Source: Methanolinea sp.
GTDB taxonomy: Archaea; Halobacteriota; Methanomicrobia; Methanomicrobiales; Methanospirillaceae
Direction: 5' to 3'
NCBI GenBank assembly: GCA_030055515.1
Contig: JASFYI010000003.1
Coordinates: 1-64,000, forward strand
DNA length: 64,000 bases
The notes under the pieces were generated by a model. The model was given only the letters and a program-made list of their open reading frames with translations. It was not told the origin of the DNA and did not search any database. Shown one piece after another: positions 4,929 through 14,533 of the stretch. The first letter of the stretch is position 1. Each line of letters starts with the position of its first letter. A program made the translations under genes and the position numbers.

Positions 4929-6893
4929 ATGCGCGTTCCATCGCCCGGCTTCCCGCGGGCAGGACGAAGGCCGAAAATCCCGGCCGGCGAGGCCATCGTC
5001 CGCCTCGTCCTCCTCGCCTGCGCCTCTTTCGCCGTCGTCGCGATATTCTTCATCATCGCATTCCTCCTCCGCGACGGGTACCCCGCGTTCCTCGAGGGGG
5101 GAATCGGGGACTTCCTCCTCGGCCCCGTCTGGAACCCGACGAGTTACCCGGCGGGGAAGTACGGGATCCTCCCCCTCGTCGCGGGAACGCTCCTCGTGAC
5201 CGCCGGCGCGATGGCCGTCTCCGTCCCCCTCGGCATCGCGTGCGCGATCTGCATTGCGCGGCTCGCGCCCCCCGCAGTGAAGAGCGTCGTGAAACCCGCG
5301 GTCGAGCTCCTCGCCGGGATCCCCTCGGTCGTGTACGGGTTCTTCGGTCTCATCGTCCTCACCGACTGGATACGCGTCACCTTCGGCGTCCCCTCGGGAG
5401 AGTCATGGCTCGCGGGGTCCCTCCTCCTTGGCGTCATGGCACTGCCGACGATCATCAGCGTCTCGGAGGACGCAATCTCCTGCGTGCCGAGGGAGTACGC
5501 GGAGGGGAGCCTCGCGCTCGGGGCGACCCACTGGCAGACCATCTCGGGGGTCGTCGTTCCCGCTGCCCTGCCGGGGATCTCGGCGGCGGTCATCCTCGGG
5601 ATGGGGAGGGCGATCGGGGAGACCATGGCGGTCCTCATGGTGACCGGGAATGCCGCCGTCATCCCCTCGCCGCTCTGGAACGTCCTCTCCCCCGTGAGGA
5701 CTCTCACCGGGACGCTCGGGATCGAGATGGGGGAGGTCGCGGTCGGGACCACACACTACCACGCCCTCTTCGGCGTCGCGGTGGTCCTCCTCGCGATCAC
5801 GCTCCTCGTCAACCTCGCGGCGAACGCGGTCATCGGGAGGATAAGGGAGAGCTACGTGCCCGGCAGGCAGTCGTGCGCGGCCACCCGGGGGAGGGAGAGG
5901 GGTCCCCTCGTCCCCCCCGCGGTCACCGGGAGGGCGGGCAAGGTCCTCGCGGTCGCGGCCCTCTCCCTCGTCGGGCTCCCCCTCGCGGGGCCCGCCGGTT
6001 TCGCGGGGTTCGCCCTCCTCTTTGCATTCATCGCGGTCGCGTGGCAGAAAGTCCCGCCGAAGGCCGCGGAGAAAGTCGCGTTCTCCCTCCTCTTCGCGGC
6101 GACGGCCGCGGTCCTCGCGGCGCTCGCCGTCATCCTCTGGGACATCCTCTGGAACGGCCTCCCCGCACTCTCGTGGGAGTTCCTCACGCAGTCCCCGCGC
6201 GACCTCGGGCGCGGCGGCGGGATCTTCCCCGCGATCGTCGGGACCCTGTACCTCGTCGCGGGGGCCATCGCGCTCGCCCTCCCGGTGGGGTTCGGCGCCG
6301 CGATCTACCTCTCGGAGTACAGGGGGGAGGGGCGCGTCACGAGGATCGTCCGGACCGGGACCGATCTCCTCAACGGGACGCCCTCGATCGTCTTCGGCCT
6401 CTTCGGGTTCTCGTTCCTCGTCCTGTTCCTGAACTTCGGCGTCAGCCTGCTCGCGGGGCAGGTCACCCTCGCGCTCATGATCCTCCCCACCATCATCAGG
6501 ACGACGGAGGAGTCGCTCAAGAGCGTGCCCGTCTCCCTCCGCGAGGGGAGCCTCGCGCTCGGAGCGACGCAGTGGCAGACGATCTCGCGCGTCGTCGTCC
6601 CGCCGGCGGTCCCGGGGATGATCACGGGGGCGATCCTCTCGATCGGGCGGGCCGCGGGGGAGACCGCCCCGATCCTCTTCACCGCGGTCGTCTTCTCCCA
6701 GAGGTTCCTCCCCGACTCCCCGTTCTCGCCGGTGATGGCCCTGCCCTACCACCTCTTCATCCTCGCGACGAACGTGCCGGGGGCCGAGGCGCAGAAGTAC
6801 GGGACCGCCGTCGTCCTCCTCCTCCTCGTGATCCTCTTCTACGCGCTCGCGATCGCGATCCGGATGCACTACAGCAGGAAGGTCCGGTGGTGA
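4929..6893 (+). CDS. Fused phosphate permease PstC-PstA
   Basis: 654 residues with two complete ABC permease domains in one chain. The first (about residues 15-305) is PstC-like with the EAA loop EGSLALGATHWQTIS near 190. A linker of about 90 residues with extra hydrophobic helices precedes the second (about 390-650), which is PstA-like with EGSLALGATQWQTIS near 535 and GRAAGETAPILFT. Normal PstC and PstA are separate proteins of about 300 residues each that pair in the membrane, so this is a natural fusion of the heterodimer. It lies 37 bp after pstS. The ATP-binding subunit gene, normally next, is not there. Confidence 0.92.
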   Translation: MRVPSPGFPRAGRRPKIPAGEAIVRLVLLACASFAVVAIFFIIAFLLRDGYPAFLEGGIGDFLLGPVWNPTSYPAGKYGILPLVAGTLLVTAGAMAVSVPLGIACAICIARLAPPAVKSVVKPAVELLAGIPSVVYGFFGLIVLTDWIRVTFGVPSGESWLAGSLLLGVMALPTIISVSEDAISCVPREYAEGSLALGATHWQTISGVVVPAALPGISAAVILGMGRAIGETMAVLMVTGNAAVIPSPLWNVLSPVRTLTGTLGIEMGEVAVGTTHYHALFGVAVVLLAITLLVNLAANAVIGRIRESYVPGRQSCAATRGRERGPLVPPAVTGRAGKVLAVAALSLVGLPLAGPAGFAGFALLFAFIAVAWQKVPPKAAEKVAFSLLFAATAAVLAALAVILWDILWNGLPALSWEFLTQSPRDLGRGGGIFPAIVGTLYLVAGAIALALPVGFGAAIYLSEYRGEGRVTRIVRTGTDLLNGTPSIVFGLFGFSFLVLFLNFGVSLLAGQVTLALMILPTIIRTTEESLKSVPVSLREGSLALGATQWQTISRVVVPPAVPGMITGAILSIGRAAGETAPILFTAVVFSQRFLPDSPFSPVMALPYHLFILATNVPGAEAQKYGTAVVLLLLVILFYALAIAIRMHYSRKVRW

Positions 6894-7010
6894 ACGGCGT
6901 GGAGGGGAGATCCCCGCGGGGGGACCGCGGTCGCGGGGTGCCGGGGGCAACCCGTATGTGCATGGACACCGAAGAAGACAGGTACGCAGGGGGGAGAATC
7001 CCGGTGACCG

Positions 7011-7018
7011 GGTGAGGT
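7011..7018 (+). promoter_or_regulatory. Ribosome binding site fixing the phoU start
   Basis: GGTGAGGT stands eight bases before the ATG at 7027. It argues against the in-frame ATG at 6958, whose extra 23 Arg/Gly-rich residues look non-coding. Confidence 0.6.
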
Positions 7019-7026
7019 ACCAAGCC

Positions 7027-7683
7027 ATGAAAGACAAGTTCCACGACGAGATGGCCAAGATGAAGGCTGATGTCCTCGGGATGGGGCTCTTTGCGGAGCA
7101 GATGCTCTCGGACGCGATGAGAGCGCTCAAGGAGAACGACCTTGCACTCGCGAGGGATGTCAAGGAGCGGAAGGCCGCGCTCTCCGAGAAGAACGACGCG
7201 CTCGAGGAGGAAGCGTACAGGATGATCGCGCTCTACCAGCCGGTCGCGCGCGACATGCGCGCGATCGCGTGCGCGCTCAAGGTGATCTCCTCTGCCGAGC
7301 GGATCGGCAGGTACGGGAAAGACATCGCGGGGATCGTCATCACCCTCGGTGACCCCCGGCCGCACGACCTCGTCTCTGCCCTCTGCCTGCCCCACATGGG
7401 CGACCTCGTGATCGCGATGATCCACGACGCACTCAAGGCGTACGAGACCGGCGACCTCTCGCTCATCGCGCGCCACTCCGAGAGGGACGACGTGGTCGAC
7501 GCCCTCCGCCACACCATCTTCCGCGAGGGGCTCACCTACATGATGGAGGACCCGCGCACGATCACGCGCTGCACGTACTACATCATGGTCGTCCGCTACC
7601 TCGAGCGGTGCGCCGACCACTCCTGCAAGATCGCGGAGAAGGTCCACTACATGGTCACCGGGGAGCGGATCGAGATCAAGTGA
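7027..7683 (+). CDS. phoU: PhoU phosphate-transport regulator
   Basis: 218 residues, almost all helical, with two PhoU repeats: FHDEMAKMKADVLGMGLFAEQML at the start and VVDALRHTIFREGLTYMMEDPR in the second half. The metal-binding E/D-rich motifs (RIGRYGKDI; RYLERCADHSCKIAE) are visible. PhoU restrains Pst transport and, in bacteria, signals phosphate status. It lies 133 bp after the permease fusion, where pstB would be expected first. Full-length single PhoU. Confidence 0.92.
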   Translation: MKDKFHDEMAKMKADVLGMGLFAEQMLSDAMRALKENDLALARDVKERKAALSEKNDALEEEAYRMIALYQPVARDMRAIACALKVISSAERIGRYGKDIAGIVITLGDPRPHDLVSALCLPHMGDLVIAMIHDALKAYETGDLSLIARHSERDDVVDALRHTIFREGLTYMMEDPRTITRCTYYIMVVRYLERCADHSCKIAEKVHYMVTGERIEIK

Positions 7684-7881
7684 GGGGCGCAAAGGGTCGT
7701 TTCCCTCCCCTGCGGGCAAGACCGCCGCGGCGCGCGGGAACGGGAGAGCGGGCAGCGGAACTCCCTCCCCGCCGCGGTTCCCGGGGAAATTCCTCCCCGG
7801 GCAACCGGAAATCTTTAATCGATCAATACTCAACCGCTGCTAAGTACTAGGACCGGCCGCCGCGGCGCGGCCCGTGGTCTT

Positions 7882-8745
7882 ATGCCGGAACCCGGAACCG
7901 AAAACGAAGACGACCCCCACGATAGCGAGCATCGTTCCTTTTTCGCGCGGGCTGCAGCCGGAGTAGATCTTTTTCGCCCCCCGTTCTCCTCCCGGAAACC
8001 GGACGCGGGGGGAGGCCCGGGTGCGACTATCCCCACGGGACAGGCGTTCCAGGGGACGGACCGCCACGCTGCCGGGAGAAGACCCGCGCCGCGGGGTGGA
8101 GGGGGAAACGGGAGGTTCCACCTCGCGCGCGGCGGGATCTACACCGTGCATGCGGGCGGCACCACGTGGTTTGTCTCGGAGGATTACTCCTACAGGAGCG
8201 CCACGTACTACGCCGTCCTTTCCCGCGAGCTCGCGGGCGACGCGGTCGCACCGGGCACGGAATCGATGCTCGACGCGTTCGTCGTTCCCGTGTGCCTCGA
8301 GCGCGCCGCACGGCACGGCATCCCCGTCGCCCCGTACACCATCGCGCACACGTGCCCTGCCGCCCCCGCCATCGTGTACGGCCTGAACTACTTCTCCCGC
8401 GCATCCCACTTCGAGGTCCTCGCGGGGGACGGGCGCGACCAGGGGAAGGTGCGCCACGCGACGAGCAACGGGAAGTACCCCTGCTGCGCGCAGGAGTTCC
8501 CGCGGGGGAGCGGGATTGTCCGGGCGATCTCCGTCTTCGGGAGGACACTTTCACCGTTCCCCGGGGTGCAGGAGATCGCAGGGCAGGTCTTCTCGTGCTT
8601 CCGCGTCCCGCTCGTCGAACTCGTCTGCATCTCCGGCCCGGGGGGGACCGTCCTCTCCTCGCTCTGCCCGGTGCGCTACTCCCGTCTTGCGCCCGGCGAG
8701 CGGCGCCTCCTCAAGGCGCACATCCTCGGACAGGCATTCCTATGA
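7882..8745 (+). CDS. RLAN-domain protein (partner of RimK-like ATP-grasp ligase)
   Basis: The C-terminal 200 residues contain WFVSEDYSYRSATYYAVL and ESMLDAFVVPVCLERAA, resembling the RLAN domain (RimK-like ATP-grasp N-terminal domain). That domain is usually fused in front of an ATP-grasp ligase and is predicted to act in small-peptide synthesis. Here it is a separate protein whose stop overlaps the ATP-grasp start by ATGA at 8742. The first 80 residues (from the ATG at 7882) are low-complexity Pro/Gly/Arg and may be untranslated. No Met lies between, and a GTG at 8146 is the main alternative start. Substrate unknown. Confidence 0.65.
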   Translation: MPEPGTENEDDPHDSEHRSFFARAAAGVDLFRPPFSSRKPDAGGGPGATIPTGQAFQGTDRHAAGRRPAPRGGGGNGRFHLARGGIYTVHAGGTTWFVSEDYSYRSATYYAVLSRELAGDAVAPGTESMLDAFVVPVCLERAARHGIPVAPYTIAHTCPAAPAIVYGLNYFSRASHFEVLAGDGRDQGKVRHATSNGKYPCCAQEFPRGSGIVRAISVFGRTLSPFPGVQEIAGQVFSCFRVPLVELVCISGPGGTVLSSLCPVRYSRLAPGERRLLKAHILGQAFL

Positions 8746-9611
8746 GCCGCCTCGGGATATTCGTCGACCGGAAAACCCTCTCCTCCTCGGACCAGCTCAA
8801 CGCCCTGATCCGGTGCAGGGACACCGCCGAGGGGATGGGGCACTCCGTCGAGTTCATCTTCCCGGTCGACATGAGGAAGGTCCGGCAGGTGGACGGCCTC
8901 TTCATACGGGCGAGAACCGACCCGATGAACGTCACGTACGTCGCGTCGAGGATCGCCGCGTCATCCGGTATCCCGGTCATCGACGATCCCGATTCCATCC
9001 GGGTCTGCTCCGACAAGGTGAACATGTACATGCACCTCCACCGGGCCGGGATCCCGATCCCGCGGACGCTCTTCATCGCGAAGGACGATATCCACCCGAC
9101 GCGCGTCCGCGAGATCATGAACGGCCTCGGGACGCCCCTCGTCCTGAAGGAACCCTCGACCTCCTTCTCGCTCCGGGTGGAACGGGTGGACGACCCGGTC
9201 GCCTTCATGCGGGTCGCGCGGCGCTACCTCAAGATGTCTGACTGGGTCGTCGCACAGGAGTACGTGCGGAGCACGTACGACTGGAGGATAGGGGTCCTCC
9301 GCGGGGAGTTCCTCTACGCTTGCAAGTACATCATCCCGCCGCAGACCTTCAAGATACAGGACTCGGTGAACGGGCACCTCGTCTCCTGCACCGTCGAGAG
9401 CGTCCCGGAAGACGCCGTCCCCGACCACGTGAGGGCGCTCGGCGTCGCGGCGGGAAGGGCGATCGGGGACGGGCTCTACGGCGTCGACATAAAGGACGGG
9501 GAGAGACCGTGCGTGATAGAGGTGAACGACAATCCCTCCCTCGAGGGCGGGGAGGACACGTTCTACCCCCACGTGTACAGGGAGATCGTCTGCGCCCTCC
9601 TCGGCACATGA
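8742..9611 (+). CDS. RimK-family ATP-grasp amidoligase
   Basis: 289 residues. After a Rossmann-like N domain (RLGIFVDRKTLSSSDQLNAL) come the ATP-grasp parts: VNMYMHLHRAGIPIPRT, the ATP-binding lysine strand PLVLKEPSTSFSL, VAQEYVRSTYDWRIGVL and the metal-binding end DGERPCVIEVNDNPSL. Such enzymes use ATP to join an amino group to a carboxylate through an acyl-phosphate. The segment after the lysine lacks the glycine-rich turn of canonical RimK. It overlaps both neighbours by ATGA, so it is translated with the RLAN protein and the Cys-cluster protein. The product is unknown. Confidence 0.85.
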   Translation: MSRLGIFVDRKTLSSSDQLNALIRCRDTAEGMGHSVEFIFPVDMRKVRQVDGLFIRARTDPMNVTYVASRIAASSGIPVIDDPDSIRVCSDKVNMYMHLHRAGIPIPRTLFIAKDDIHPTRVREIMNGLGTPLVLKEPSTSFSLRVERVDDPVAFMRVARRYLKMSDWVVAQEYVRSTYDWRIGVLRGEFLYACKYIIPPQTFKIQDSVNGHLVSCTVESVPEDAVPDHVRALGVAAGRAIGDGLYGVDIKDGERPCVIEVNDNPSLEGGEDTFYPHVYREIVCALLGT

Positions 9612-10129
9612 CCGGAAAGGGCGACGACCCGCCTGGATGGCAGGAGAGGGCGAGTGCCGTCTGCGGGGGGTGCGGGGGCCGGTGCTGCCACGAGGCTCGC
9701 CCCCCTCTCACCACCCGGCGGGTGACAATCCTCCTCCGGCGGGGTGTCGCGGAAGGGGACATCGAGTACGCGGGGTACTCCCGCATCCGGGCACGGGAGG
9801 ACGGGATGTGCGCATTGTGGGAGGCTGGCAGGTGCCGGGTCCACGACGTCAAGCCCGAGACGTGCCGGGCAGGCCCGTTCACGTTCGACGTGGAGGGGGG
9901 GACTGTCCGGGTATTCCTCAAGCACGAGTCCCGGTGCCCGCTCGTCTCCCTCCTGAAATCCGACCCCGACATGTTCAGGGCGCAGTTCAGGATCGCCGTG
10001 GAGAACATCCTCTCCCTCGCGGGGGCGCTCCCGCCAGGCGAACTCGCGACAATAAGCGCGATCCCTGAACCCGACTGCGACTTCGTCGCGGGGTTCCCGC
10101 TCCGCCCCCGCGGCAGGGGAGGCCCATGA
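9608..10129 (+). CDS. YkgJ-family cysteine-cluster protein
   Basis: 173 residues with the Cys signature of the YkgJ (CxxCxxCC) family: CGGCGGRCC near residue 19, then CALWEAGRCRVHDVKPETC with a following FTFDVEGG. The cysteines are expected to bind Zn or an Fe-S cluster. Its role is not known biochemically, and members often accompany peptide-modifying genes. ATGA overlaps with the ATP-grasp gene before and the GCS2 gene after place it firmly in the amidoligase operon, so an accessory or oxygenase-like step in the same pathway is a fair inference. Confidence 0.8.
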   Translation: MTGKGDDPPGWQERASAVCGGCGGRCCHEARPPLTTRRVTILLRRGVAEGDIEYAGYSRIRAREDGMCALWEAGRCRVHDVKPETCRAGPFTFDVEGGTVRVFLKHESRCPLVSLLKSDPDMFRAQFRIAVENILSLAGALPPGELATISAIPEPDCDFVAGFPLRPRGRGGP

Positions 10130-11247
10130 AGACCGGGACGGAACACGAGTATTCGATCAACAGTGCAGACTTCGTTCCCCTGCCCTGTTCCGACCGGATC
10201 CTCGCCGGGGCCGGGGGCACCCCCTATGGTGAAGTCCCGATGGCAGGTGCGACCATCGGAAAGGAACTCCAGAAGACAGTCCTCGAGTTCGTCCCCGCGT
10301 ACCCCCACCGCAGTATCCCCGTCCTTGAATCGCTCGTGTACTCCGGGATAAAGGAGTTCTCGAGGCGGTTTTCCGGCCGGTACACCCTCCTCGGCCTCGG
10401 GATGCACCCGACCCTCTCCCCTTCCCGCGACCTCGTCTGGGACCACGGCGACGCAGCGATCTACCGCGAGTACGACAGGCTGTTTGGCATCGCGCGGCAC
10501 GGGTGGGTGAACGTCCAGGCATTCCAGGTCAACCTCGAGTATAGGAGCGAGGGGCAGCTCGTCAGGATGTTCAACAGGGTGCGCGCACTCATGCCTTTCC
10601 TCGTCGCGGTCTCGGCCGCGTCCCCCTTCGTCGAGGGGCGGCTCACCGGGACGCTCGATTCCCGGCTCGTATATTACATGGAGAACCAGGCGAGGATCCC
10701 GGAGATCTGCGACGGGATCGTCACGCGGCCGATCGCGTCTGTCGACGACTACCGCGGGAGGCTCTGTCTCCTCTACGACCTCCTCCGGGAGGAGGGCGCG
10801 GATGCACTCTGCGAGGAGTGGGTCGCGTCATTCGGCGCGATCGTCCGGTTCAGCCGCCCCTGCATCGAGATAAAGGTCATGGACGAGCAGGAGTGCGTCC
10901 GCTCTGACATGGCGCTCTGCGCGTTTGCCCGGGCGCTCGTGCGTGCCCGGGATCTCCCCCTCGAGGAAGACTCCGACGCGCTCCGCGACCTCGTCGCGCA
11001 CGCGATCCGGCACGGGACCGCCGGCCTCGAGGACGATCTCTCCCGTCTCTACCGCCGCGCGACCGGTGCCGCCACGCCCGGGGAGAGGCACTACCTCCCC
11101 CTCGTCGGGGAGAGGATCCGGGGAGGGTGCCTCGCCGCCCTGCTCTCCCGGAGGTACAGGGAGACGGGAGATCTCCCCGGGATCATGCGCGATCTCGCGC
11201 GCTGCCTCGCGGAGAATCGGCCGTACAAGGGCGGGGAGGAGGAGTAG
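10126..11247 (+). CDS. GCS2-family glutamate-cysteine-ligase-like carboxylate-amine ligase
   Basis: 373 residues. The start KTGTEHEYSIN carries the paired acidic residues that bind Mg-ATP in the GCS2 (YbdK/EgtA-like) family. LLGLGMHPTLSPSRDLVW, WVNVQAFQVNLEY and CIEIKVMDEQECVRSDM match the family core. These enzymes form gamma-glutamyl-type amide bonds. Whether Glu and Cys are the substrates here cannot be read from sequence. ATGA overlap with the Cys-cluster gene makes it the fourth gene of the operon. Two different amidoligase folds in one operon imply at least two successive amide-forming steps. Confidence 0.82.
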   Translation: MKTGTEHEYSINSADFVPLPCSDRILAGAGGTPYGEVPMAGATIGKELQKTVLEFVPAYPHRSIPVLESLVYSGIKEFSRRFSGRYTLLGLGMHPTLSPSRDLVWDHGDAAIYREYDRLFGIARHGWVNVQAFQVNLEYRSEGQLVRMFNRVRALMPFLVAVSAASPFVEGRLTGTLDSRLVYYMENQARIPEICDGIVTRPIASVDDYRGRLCLLYDLLREEGADALCEEWVASFGAIVRFSRPCIEIKVMDEQECVRSDMALCAFARALVRARDLPLEEDSDALRDLVAHAIRHGTAGLEDDLSRLYRRATGAATPGERHYLPLVGERIRGGCLAALLSRRYRETGDLPGIMRDLARCLAENRPYKGGEEE

Positions 11248-11422: not shown

Positions 11423-11587
11423 CTAGTACCGGGGCTTCCTGTGCTTGGGCAGGCACGCCCGGCAGTACACCGGCCTCCCCTCGGTGGGGACGAACGGTAC
11501 CTCGCATTCTGCTCCACAGTCCGCGCACACGGCCTTCGTCATCGTCCGGGGCCGGTCGAACCCGCCCCTGAAACCTCTCTCGTTCAT
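11423..11587 (-). CDS. Small CxxC-x17-CxxC zinc-ribbon protein
   Basis: 54 residues. The only clear element is CADC, seventeen residues, CRAC, followed by a basic tail LPKHRKPRY. I count 17 residues between the pairs, the spacing of the CxxC-x17-CxxC domain known from methanogens. It should bind one Zn and may contact nucleic acid. I chose the ATG at 11587 because a TATA box at 11640-11646 (minus strand) fits it. The longer frame to 11776 runs through the promoter. It converges on the amidoligase operon. Confidence 0.72.
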   Translation of the reverse strand: MNERGFRGGFDRPRTMTKAVCADCGAECEVPFVPTEGRPVYCRACLPKHRKPRY

Positions 11588-11639
11588 CTCTTTCCCTGAT
11601 GCAGTTTTGATCCTGCGCGTACGCGTGGGGGCGCAAGGG

Positions 11640-11646
11640 ATATATA
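11640..11646 (-). promoter_or_regulatory. TATA box for the CxxC-x17-CxxC gene
   Basis: TATATAT (minus strand reads CTATATATCCC) lies about 55 bp before the ATG at 11587, giving a leader of roughly 30 bases. Confidence 0.5.
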
Positions 11647-11734
11647 GGTGTGCATGGGGGTGGCGGGACGGGGCCGGGGGGAGGCAGAAACCCGGCACGC
11701 CGCGGCGGGGGCGGGGGGCGGGGCATCCACGGCA

Positions 11735-11788
11735 TTCCCTGCAACCCTGCAACACGATTCCCCATTTCCGCGGCATTGTTGCAGGGAA
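11735..11788. repeat. Inverted GTTGCAGGG repeats, left cluster
   Basis: CCCTGCAAC occurs at 11737-11745 and again at 11745-11753, and the reverse complement GTTGCAGGG at 11778-11786. TTCCCTGCAAC (11735-11745) and GTTGCAGGGAA (11778-11788) form a perfect 11-bp inverted repeat. The same word recurs in a denser array 270 bp to the right. Confidence 0.75.
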
Positions 11789-12933: not shown

Positions 12934-14191
12934 TTTAGCCCCCTCCATTTCTCTCACCAAAGATACGCATGATGATCACCTTAATTCACAATAAACAAGA
13001 GATTCACGCGCCTGGTGTAAAAGTACATTTCGAAAAACCCCTAAATCAAAAAATACGAAAGATTAAATCGTAAAATTGATCGTACTCGGAGGGGAATACA
13101 TATTTGGTGAAACGATGCATCCCTCTCTGGGAGGGGATCGCAATGACCCAAAATGGTTTCTCCTCGGACAGGTTCTCTCACTCGTCACCAGCCGTCCCGC
13201 CCAACAGGTATTTGCGAGAAACGAGATTGAGCCCATTCCCGCAGCTTTAGATGCAATCGCGATCGTTCTCACCGCGATGTTCTTCTCTTGTGATTGTTCC
13301 TTTGTCATCCAGGAATTGGTAAATCGCAGGAGACTCCGCAAATTTCTGGACATTCACACTGTTCCCACAGTCGATTCGGTTTATAAAACACTGAGCAGGT
13401 TCGATGAAACCCAGTTTATCTCCCTCGTGAACGGGATCCTCAATTCCTGTTGCACGAGGAGGAGGAGACGAGGGTGGAACACGTTTATCGTGGATGCAAC
13501 CGCGATTACCCTCGATTTGAATTGGTTCAGGAAAAAGTATACGAAGAAACAGTTGGAGAACAGGGACTACGCGTGGGGGTATTGTCCTACCCACGGCCAC
13601 TATATCGGCTACAAACTCACTCTCGCACTCGACGCGCATTCCCTGCGGCCGGTCTGTTTCCTGCTCCATCCGGGATCTCCCCACGATTCTGTCATTTTCC
13701 GGGAGATCGTGAGTGAATTGAAAAGGCGCAGAATCGCCCGGATCGGTGATACAATCGTCTTTGACAAGGGATACTACGCGTACGATAACTACGTGGAGGG
13801 AATCTTCGCGTTCAGCATCGTCCCGATGATTTTTACAAAGAAGAACTTTTCATTGTCCAAACTGCTCAGGAAACTCAATTTTCCCCTCTGGATTTTCGGG
13901 AGGTCTGATACGAAACAGCTCTTCCAGAGATACACTTCCCTGGCGCGCCGGTCGGTGATGTACCTCCGCGACGAGATCCAACTCGTGGAGAAGAGATCCC
14001 TCATTGAGGATGTCTTCAAAATGGCGAAAAATGCATTCGGATTGAAGAAAATCTACAAATATACGACGCGATCTGTGAAAAAGACAGTCTGCCTGAATGT
14101 ACTTTTACACGGACTCGTTATTTCTCTGGGATTTGGCGATAAGATTCAATTACAACGGTTGGCTGAGTGGTAATTTAGGGAGGGGGTTAGA
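12934..14191 (+). mobile_element. Insertion sequence with DDE transposase
   Basis: An element of about 1.26 kb. The proposed left end TTTAGCCCCCTCC (12934-12946) and the reverse complement of the right end, TCTAACCCCCTCC (14179-14191), agree at 11 of 13 positions and bracket one full-length transposase gene. Base composition is much richer in AT than in the flanking genes, as expected for recent arrival. I see no convincing target-site duplication, so the exact ends may be off by a few bases. Confidence 0.65.
13076..14173 (+). CDS. DDE transposase of the insertion sequence
   Basis: 365 residues with an RNase-H-like DDE layout: TFIVDATAITLDLNWF (first Asp), IGDTIVFDKGYYAYDN (second Asp) and RSLIEDVFKMAKNAFGLKK (Glu). 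The chain is uninterrupted and basic, so it may be active. The family is within the IS4/IS5-like superfamily, but I cannot assign it further by eye. Start choice is open: TTG at 13076 gives the longest form, and ATG at 13115 follows GGAGG by about 20 bases. Codon use is AT-rich compared with the neighbouring chromosome. The last 60 codons are duplicated downstream. Confidence 0.85.
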   Translation: MIVLGGEYIFGETMHPSLGGDRNDPKWFLLGQVLSLVTSRPAQQVFARNEIEPIPAALDAIAIVLTAMFFSCDCSFVIQELVNRRRLRKFLDIHTVPTVDSVYKTLSRFDETQFISLVNGILNSCCTRRRRRGWNTFIVDATAITLDLNWFRKKYTKKQLENRDYAWGYCPTHGHYIGYKLTLALDAHSLRPVCFLLHPGSPHDSVIFREIVSELKRRRIARIGDTIVFDKGYYAYDNYVEGIFAFSIVPMIFTKKNFSLSKLLRKLNFPLWIFGRSDTKQLFQRYTSLARRSVMYLRDEIQLVEKRSLIEDVFKMAKNAFGLKKIYKYTTRSVKKTVCLNVLLHGLVISLGFGDKIQLQRLAEW

Positions 14192-14332
14192 CATTCTTCA
14201 TTCCCTCTGCGTTATCGGTAAGGTAATGTTCTACCAAGTCTTTACTAATCATTGCCCTGTATTCCTCCGTTTCTGCAATCTACTGTAGGATACAGGGTCG
14301 TTTCAATTTTACAGCTTTATAGGTACACTACC

Positions 14333-14533
14333 AAGAGATCCCTCATCGAGGATGTCTTCAAAACGGCGAAAAATGCATTCGGTTTGAAGAGGATTCACAA
14401 GTATACGACGCGATCTGTGAAAAAGACGGTCTGCCTGAATATACTTTTACTCGGGCTCGTTATTTCTCTGGGATTTGGCGATAAGATTCAATTACAACGG
14501 TTGGCTGAGTGGTGATTTGGAGAGGGGGTTAAC
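14333..14533 (+). mobile_element. Truncated second copy of the insertion-sequence right end
   Basis: 201 bp that align without gaps to 13991-14191, with about 16-17 base differences counted by eye. It encodes RSLIEDVFKTAKNAFGLKR through the transposase C-terminus to QLQRLAEW and a TGA stop, then the same terminal sequence (AGAGGGGGTTAAC). The 5' part is missing, so it cannot be expressed as a working transposase. The differences show it is an older or separately acquired copy, not a fresh duplication. Confidence 0.85.

Follow-up and report, generated by a model that had tools for sequence, protein, structure and literature searches.

The window, a stretch of 64,000 nucleotides from Methanolinea sp., carries four open reading frames on the + strand (7882-8745, 8742-9611, 9608-10129 and 10126-11247), joined by three ATGA overlaps (at 8742, 9608 and 10126). 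A preliminary description of this DNA had reported the arrangement and named the products as an RLAN protein, an ATP-grasp ligase, a YkgJ-type protein and a GCS2 ligase; the reading frames and overlaps are where it placed them, and Pfam bears out all four families. Since any ATGA start necessarily carries an overlapping TGA, the overlap on its own proves little. The start of the first gene needs revision. It had been set at 7882; we find that the RLAN domain begins near 8104-8122 and that the ATG at 7882 opens a separate small ORF, conserved in all sister species. Immediately upstream of the operon are a phosphate-transporter-like permease ORF and PhoU (4929-7683), and the synteny with PhoU is retained in several relatives. 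Downstream, a small treble-clef zinc-finger protein (PF23477) is encoded on the - strand (11423-11776) and stays near the operon in several relatives. Farther along, a transposase-like ORF (13076-14173) precedes a truncated duplicate of its own C-terminus (14252-14515).

The RimK-like ATP-grasp ligase (8742-9611, + strand) scores 25.7 bits against the Pfam RimK family (cut-off 21), and RimK and LysX are its relatives in the PDB. Its catalytic residues are intact: K92, K136, D249, E260 and N262 are invariant in the alignment, without exception. In NCBIfam it reaches 69 bits for RimK, 61 for LysX and 48 for MptN, under the respective equivalog cut-offs of 143, 276 and 350. The GCS2 carboxylate-amine ligase (10126-11247, + strand) scores 108.7 bits against PF04107 (cut-off 21) and keeps the GTEHE and SP..EG motifs in the alignment. 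A PDB profile search gives plant glutamate-cysteine ligase and YbdK as its nearest solved relatives; NCBIfam places it near YbdK and the plant-type glutamate-cysteine ligases, yet under every equivalog cut-off. Because both enzymes fall below all equivalog cut-offs, their substrates are not readable from their families. The gene between them (9608-10129, + strand) encodes a CxxCxxCC protein (36.5 bits against PF03692, cut-off 23) whose cysteines are invariant in the alignment, making it a probable metal or Fe-S binder. A similar Cys motif in FliB holds a [4Fe-4S] cluster (PMC8598068), and by analogy the YkgJ-type protein most likely supplies a metal site.

The RLAN protein (8104-8745, + strand) matches PF14401 at 26.4 bits when trimmed (cut-off 25), a marginal score for the window alone. 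The family assignment of the preliminary description nevertheless holds, as PF14401 is matched by all 30 of 30 RLAN relatives at E ≤ 0.01. An archaeal RLAN profile also matches bacterial RLAN with 97.6% probability in a profile-profile comparison. Pfam lists RLAN as an unassigned alpha+beta domain. An AlphaFold2 model computed from the window protein and 29 relatives has a pLDDT of 93.2 and a pTM of 0.89. For this model Foldseek returns 417 PDB matches at E ≤ 0.001, and all of the 50 matches listed are ATP-grasp proteins. The top matches among those listed are ArgX (E 7e-9), the graspetide ligase PsnB (about 1e-8, as for ArgX), LysX and RimK, with alignments that span the entire chain at a TM of about 0.5-0.6. 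By predicted structure, then, RLAN belongs to the ATP-grasp fold. When positions are equated by eye, the catalytic Lys and the Mg-binding Glu and Asn of the superfamily are absent from RLAN: where the ligase has the Lys of VLKEPST, RLAN has Tyr, Phe or Asp; S-x-L takes the place of the E-x-N of VIEVNDNP.

Sequence comparison gives fainter signals. The archaeal RLAN profile shows no significant similarity to the neighbouring ATP-grasp in a direct profile-profile comparison, and a search of the PDB with it yields no significant match; its second hit, an ATP-grasp L-amino acid ligase, has an E of 1.7 and lies in the register that the structures predict. A divergent subset of RLAN proteins aligns over 151 columns with the ATP-grasp ligase, also in that register (p 0.0015; probability 16.6%). 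Because the plain comparison is not significant, the pseudoenzyme claim draws on the predicted structure together with weak sequence support. On these grounds archaeal RLAN looks like a degenerate copy of the ATP-grasp ligase beside it, a pseudo-ATP-grasp partner. Because the modelled fold has lost its catalytic residues, RLAN probably does not itself catalyse amide formation, contrary to the role it had been given. The preliminary description had also proposed two amide-forming steps and a metal protein. That account, with two enzymes that form amide bonds and one metal protein, still describes the operon best.

We examined how these genes are inherited. The ATP-grasp orthologue is present in 28 of 61 related genomes. 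GCS2 (26/61) and a close YkgJ (23/61) occur only where it is present, and in none of the 33 genomes that lack it. Gene order is retained in Methanomicrobiales and Methanothrix. With co-occurrence across 61 genomes and a preserved order, the genes do stay together in relatives, a point that the preliminary description had left to a genome survey. The exceptions define a hierarchy among the operon genes. RLAN and ATP-grasp occur without GCS2 or YkgJ in four loci (L036, L039, L058, L060); GCS2 is kept and YkgJ missing in three (L028, L044, L065); in two more (L034, L056) YkgJ is gone and GCS2 has decayed, with GTEHE lost, beside intact RLAN and ATP-grasp. Tree distances correlate at 0.97 for RLAN and ATP-grasp, at 0.92-0.94 for GCS2 with either, and at 0.65-0.75 for YkgJ. 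Scanning 84,980 species genomes yields at least 583 relatives. Among the best 80 of these, which we examined, the close set consists of Methanomicrobiales, Methanothrix, Methanofastidiosum and Methanomassiliicoccales. Three Bathyarchaeota loci (L072, L073, L075) have YkgJ-GCS2 divergent to RLAN-ATP-grasp. The window genome itself has a single FGase, located outside the operon, and no second GCS2.

Bacterial relatives in the same best 80 of at least 583 carry RLAN fused to ATP-grasp. The fused gene is often followed immediately by GCS2, and is flanked by a C39-type peptidase upstream and an FGase-family amidohydrolase downstream; other loci carry GNAT or GNAT-C39. The same type of GCS2 adjoins RLAN/ATP-grasp in bacteria of many phyla. 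We take these RLAN-RimK ATP-grasp/GCS2/C39-peptidase (or GNAT-C39)/FGase neighbourhoods to be the PF14401 systems of Iyer et al. 2009. That study, like the Pfam RLAN entry, is said to have already predicted that RLAN/ATP-grasp and GCS2 make peptides. Outside Iyer et al. 2009, our literature search found no paper naming RLAN together with ATP-grasp. The window operon agrees with the bacterial neighbourhoods in its RLAN, ATP-grasp and GCS2 families and in their order. Unlike them, it has RLAN and the ligase as separate, overlapping genes, a longer RLAN, an additional YkgJ and a conserved leader ORF, and it lacks the GNAT, C39 and FGase neighbours. Since bacteria share RLAN, ATP-grasp and GCS2, the operon is the archaeal form, split into separate genes, of a system that is known but uncharacterised, and not an isolated new pathway; with the pairing so widespread, the suggestion of an undescribed pathway is not supported. 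The archaeal split form, the pseudo-ATP-grasp reading and the leader do appear to be new, as far as our searches reach. The bacterial FGase and C39 neighbours are consistent with a Glu amide also being cleaved. That RLAN partners the ATP-grasp ligase we infer from their fusion in bacteria, their gene overlap (here RLAN adjoins the RimK-like ATP-grasp through an ATGA) and their co-inheritance. As another lead we considered the Pseudomonas Rlo operon, with its ATP-grasp RloC, and set it aside: its description in the literature consulted does not call RloC an RLAN protein. RloC presumably falls in a different ATP-grasp family.

Upstream of the small ORF, on the + strand, the alignment shows a BRE/TATA-like promoter element (7804-7817; CCGGAAATCTTTAA, or CCACAAACCTTTAA in sister species) in 11 of 11 genus members. 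It is followed by a 5'UTR hairpin and GTGGT (7853-7878, + strand), just ahead of the start codon; in relatives the hairpin is followed by GTGTT or GTGGT. In two groups of relatives, independent of each other, the stem carries compensatory changes (6 and 7 cells), a signal that vanishes when the partners are slid. An Rfam search of 7600-8300 returns nothing above threshold. In genus g15 (L026, L038, L047), a GCCGCA-TGCGGC hairpin and GTGGT persist before an ATG and the acidic peptide is replaced; this genus has no acidic motif, and the coding test gives no signal there.

The conserved N-terminus of the small ORF (7882-7944, + strand; MPEPGTENEDDPHDSEHRSFF in the window) follows the genus motif M(P/S)EPE(T/N/S)ENDDDPHDRV, or MxEPExENDDDPHDRV in summary. 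Within the genus, 144 of 242 differing codon pairs at codons 2-16 are synonymous in frame (60%), against 18 of 223 (8%) and 29 of 206 (14%) in the other two frames. The tail shows no peptide-level constraint and no recurring core residues. Judged from these sequences, it is the acidic N-terminus of the small ORF that is selected and not its tail. Methanoregula-type relatives have MxE(C/S)xxSDDDDEEDHR-type ORFs in the same place, with a weaker synonymous excess. Across the archaeal loci, an acidic small ORF, whose acidic run falls among the first 20 residues, is found in 21 of 47, against 0.15% of dinucleotide shuffles, and its stop overlaps or abuts the downstream RLAN start in 26 of 28. In sister species the ORF is out of frame with RLAN and ends where RLAN starts. 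The window ORF instead has no stop and reads through into RLAN in the same frame, which reflects either a fusion or an assembly indel. Small-ORF HMMs from different lineages do not detect one another, and the small-ORF HMM has no match in the bacterial loci. Six Methanothrix loci (L049-L053, L055) have a conserved leader of their own (xASDxDxHRSLS...) with CGTAG...CTACG inverted repeats; the coding test gives a weak signal there, and this leader may act at the RNA level.

The preliminary description had stated that no precursor peptide gene is present. A conserved, translated-looking small ORF does head the operon, and it resembles a leader peptide more than a precursor. Because its start is conserved, its tail is free and its stop is coupled to the RLAN start, the better fit from sequence is that it most likely encodes a regulatory leader peptide gating RLAN translation. 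In enterobacteria, early acidic runs destabilise translating ribosomes and control mgtA/mgtB (PMC8092293, PMC11282234), and by analogy an acidic leader may destabilise ribosomes in archaea as well. Like MgtL/MgtQ (PMC8092293, PMC11282234), the window leader is a short ORF with early acidic and proline residues, upstream of the controlled gene and beside RNA hairpins; it differs in being archaeal and longer and in overlapping the downstream start, and its mechanism is putative.

The small ORF might instead be the substrate itself, an acidic ribosomal precursor or carrier peptide for the RLAN/ATP-grasp pair and GCS2, comparable to LysW (for LysX/ArgX) or to the graspetide precursors (for PsnB). 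It stands first in the operon and has a conserved N-terminus and variable C-terminus, as RiPP precursors do, and the closest folds of RLAN and the ligase include LysX/ArgX and PsnB, whose substrates are peptides or carrier proteins. However, selection on the peptide and recurring core residues are both lacking in the tail, genus g15 and the bacterial loci have no recognisable homologue of the ORF, and the window copy is part of a fusion with RLAN. The window ligase shares its ATP-grasp fold and catalytic residues with the LysX/ArgX-LysW and RimK ligases, but falls below their family cut-offs and has an apparently dead ATP-grasp-like protein alongside; no LysW homologue is seen in the operon. 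With PsnB, which the RLAN model closely matches in fold, the locus has in common a small ORF beside an ATP-grasp gene, but a graspetide cluster has a precursor with conserved core repeats, whereas the window ORF is without a graspetide-type core motif, its tail being unconstrained and sharing no core. We know of no GCS2 in graspetide clusters. We regard a precursor or carrier role as unlikely. Improbable, too, is the further proposal that the small ORF is a carrier or precursor on which the ATP-grasp ligase, its pseudo-partner RLAN and GCS2 assemble the product, which would make the operon a new archaeal class of peptide-scaffolded amidoligases.

Two further explanations, both very doubtful, concern the enzymes. 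GCS2 could be a plain glutamate-cysteine ligase, the operon making a redox thiol like gamma-glutamylcysteine. The plant enzymes among its nearest solved relatives and the retained GTEHE and SP..EG motifs agree with this, as does the precedent of haloarchaeal GshA, which makes gamma-glutamylcysteine (PMC7278568); but its scores lie far under all glutamate-cysteine ligase cut-offs, no thiol reductase partner is seen, and the same GCS2 type sits beside RLAN/ATP-grasp across many bacterial phyla. Alternatively, the RimK-like enzyme could glutamylate a host protein, e.g., a ribosomal protein, as a protein-modification system. Among characterised ligases its closest relatives are RimK and LysX, and RimK is quoted, in a passage of PMC12239564, as glutamylating RpsF in Pseudomonas. 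Against this, the subfamily scores under half the RimK family cut-off, and the operon is also linked to a further ligase, GCS2.

The reading we prefer, to which we give a probability of about 0.6, is a split archaeal RLAN/RimK-ATP-grasp and GCS2 system, in which pseudoenzyme-assisted amidoligases make a glutamyl-type product under leader-peptide control. The ATP-grasp ligase would be the first catalyst and, assisted by RLAN, would form one amide bond. RLAN, fused to the ligase in bacteria and coupled to it here by the stop/start overlap, would most likely bind it as a structural or substrate-recognition partner in an RLAN-ligase complex. GCS2 would make the second amide bond, probably gamma-glutamyl, with YkgJ as an optional metal or Fe-S accessory, and the product would probably be a small glutamyl-type peptide metabolite. 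Expression would start from the upstream promoter with its 5' hairpin, and the acidic short ORF, its stop overlapping the RLAN start, would gate RLAN translation. If RLAN is a dead ATP-grasp, the whole RLAN system, bacterial and archaeal, turns into a ligase pair of one pseudoenzyme and one enzyme. With its leader ORF and hairpin, the locus would add an archaeal metabolic operon to the few cases of conserved leader peptides there, and would offer a way to learn when these genes are in use.
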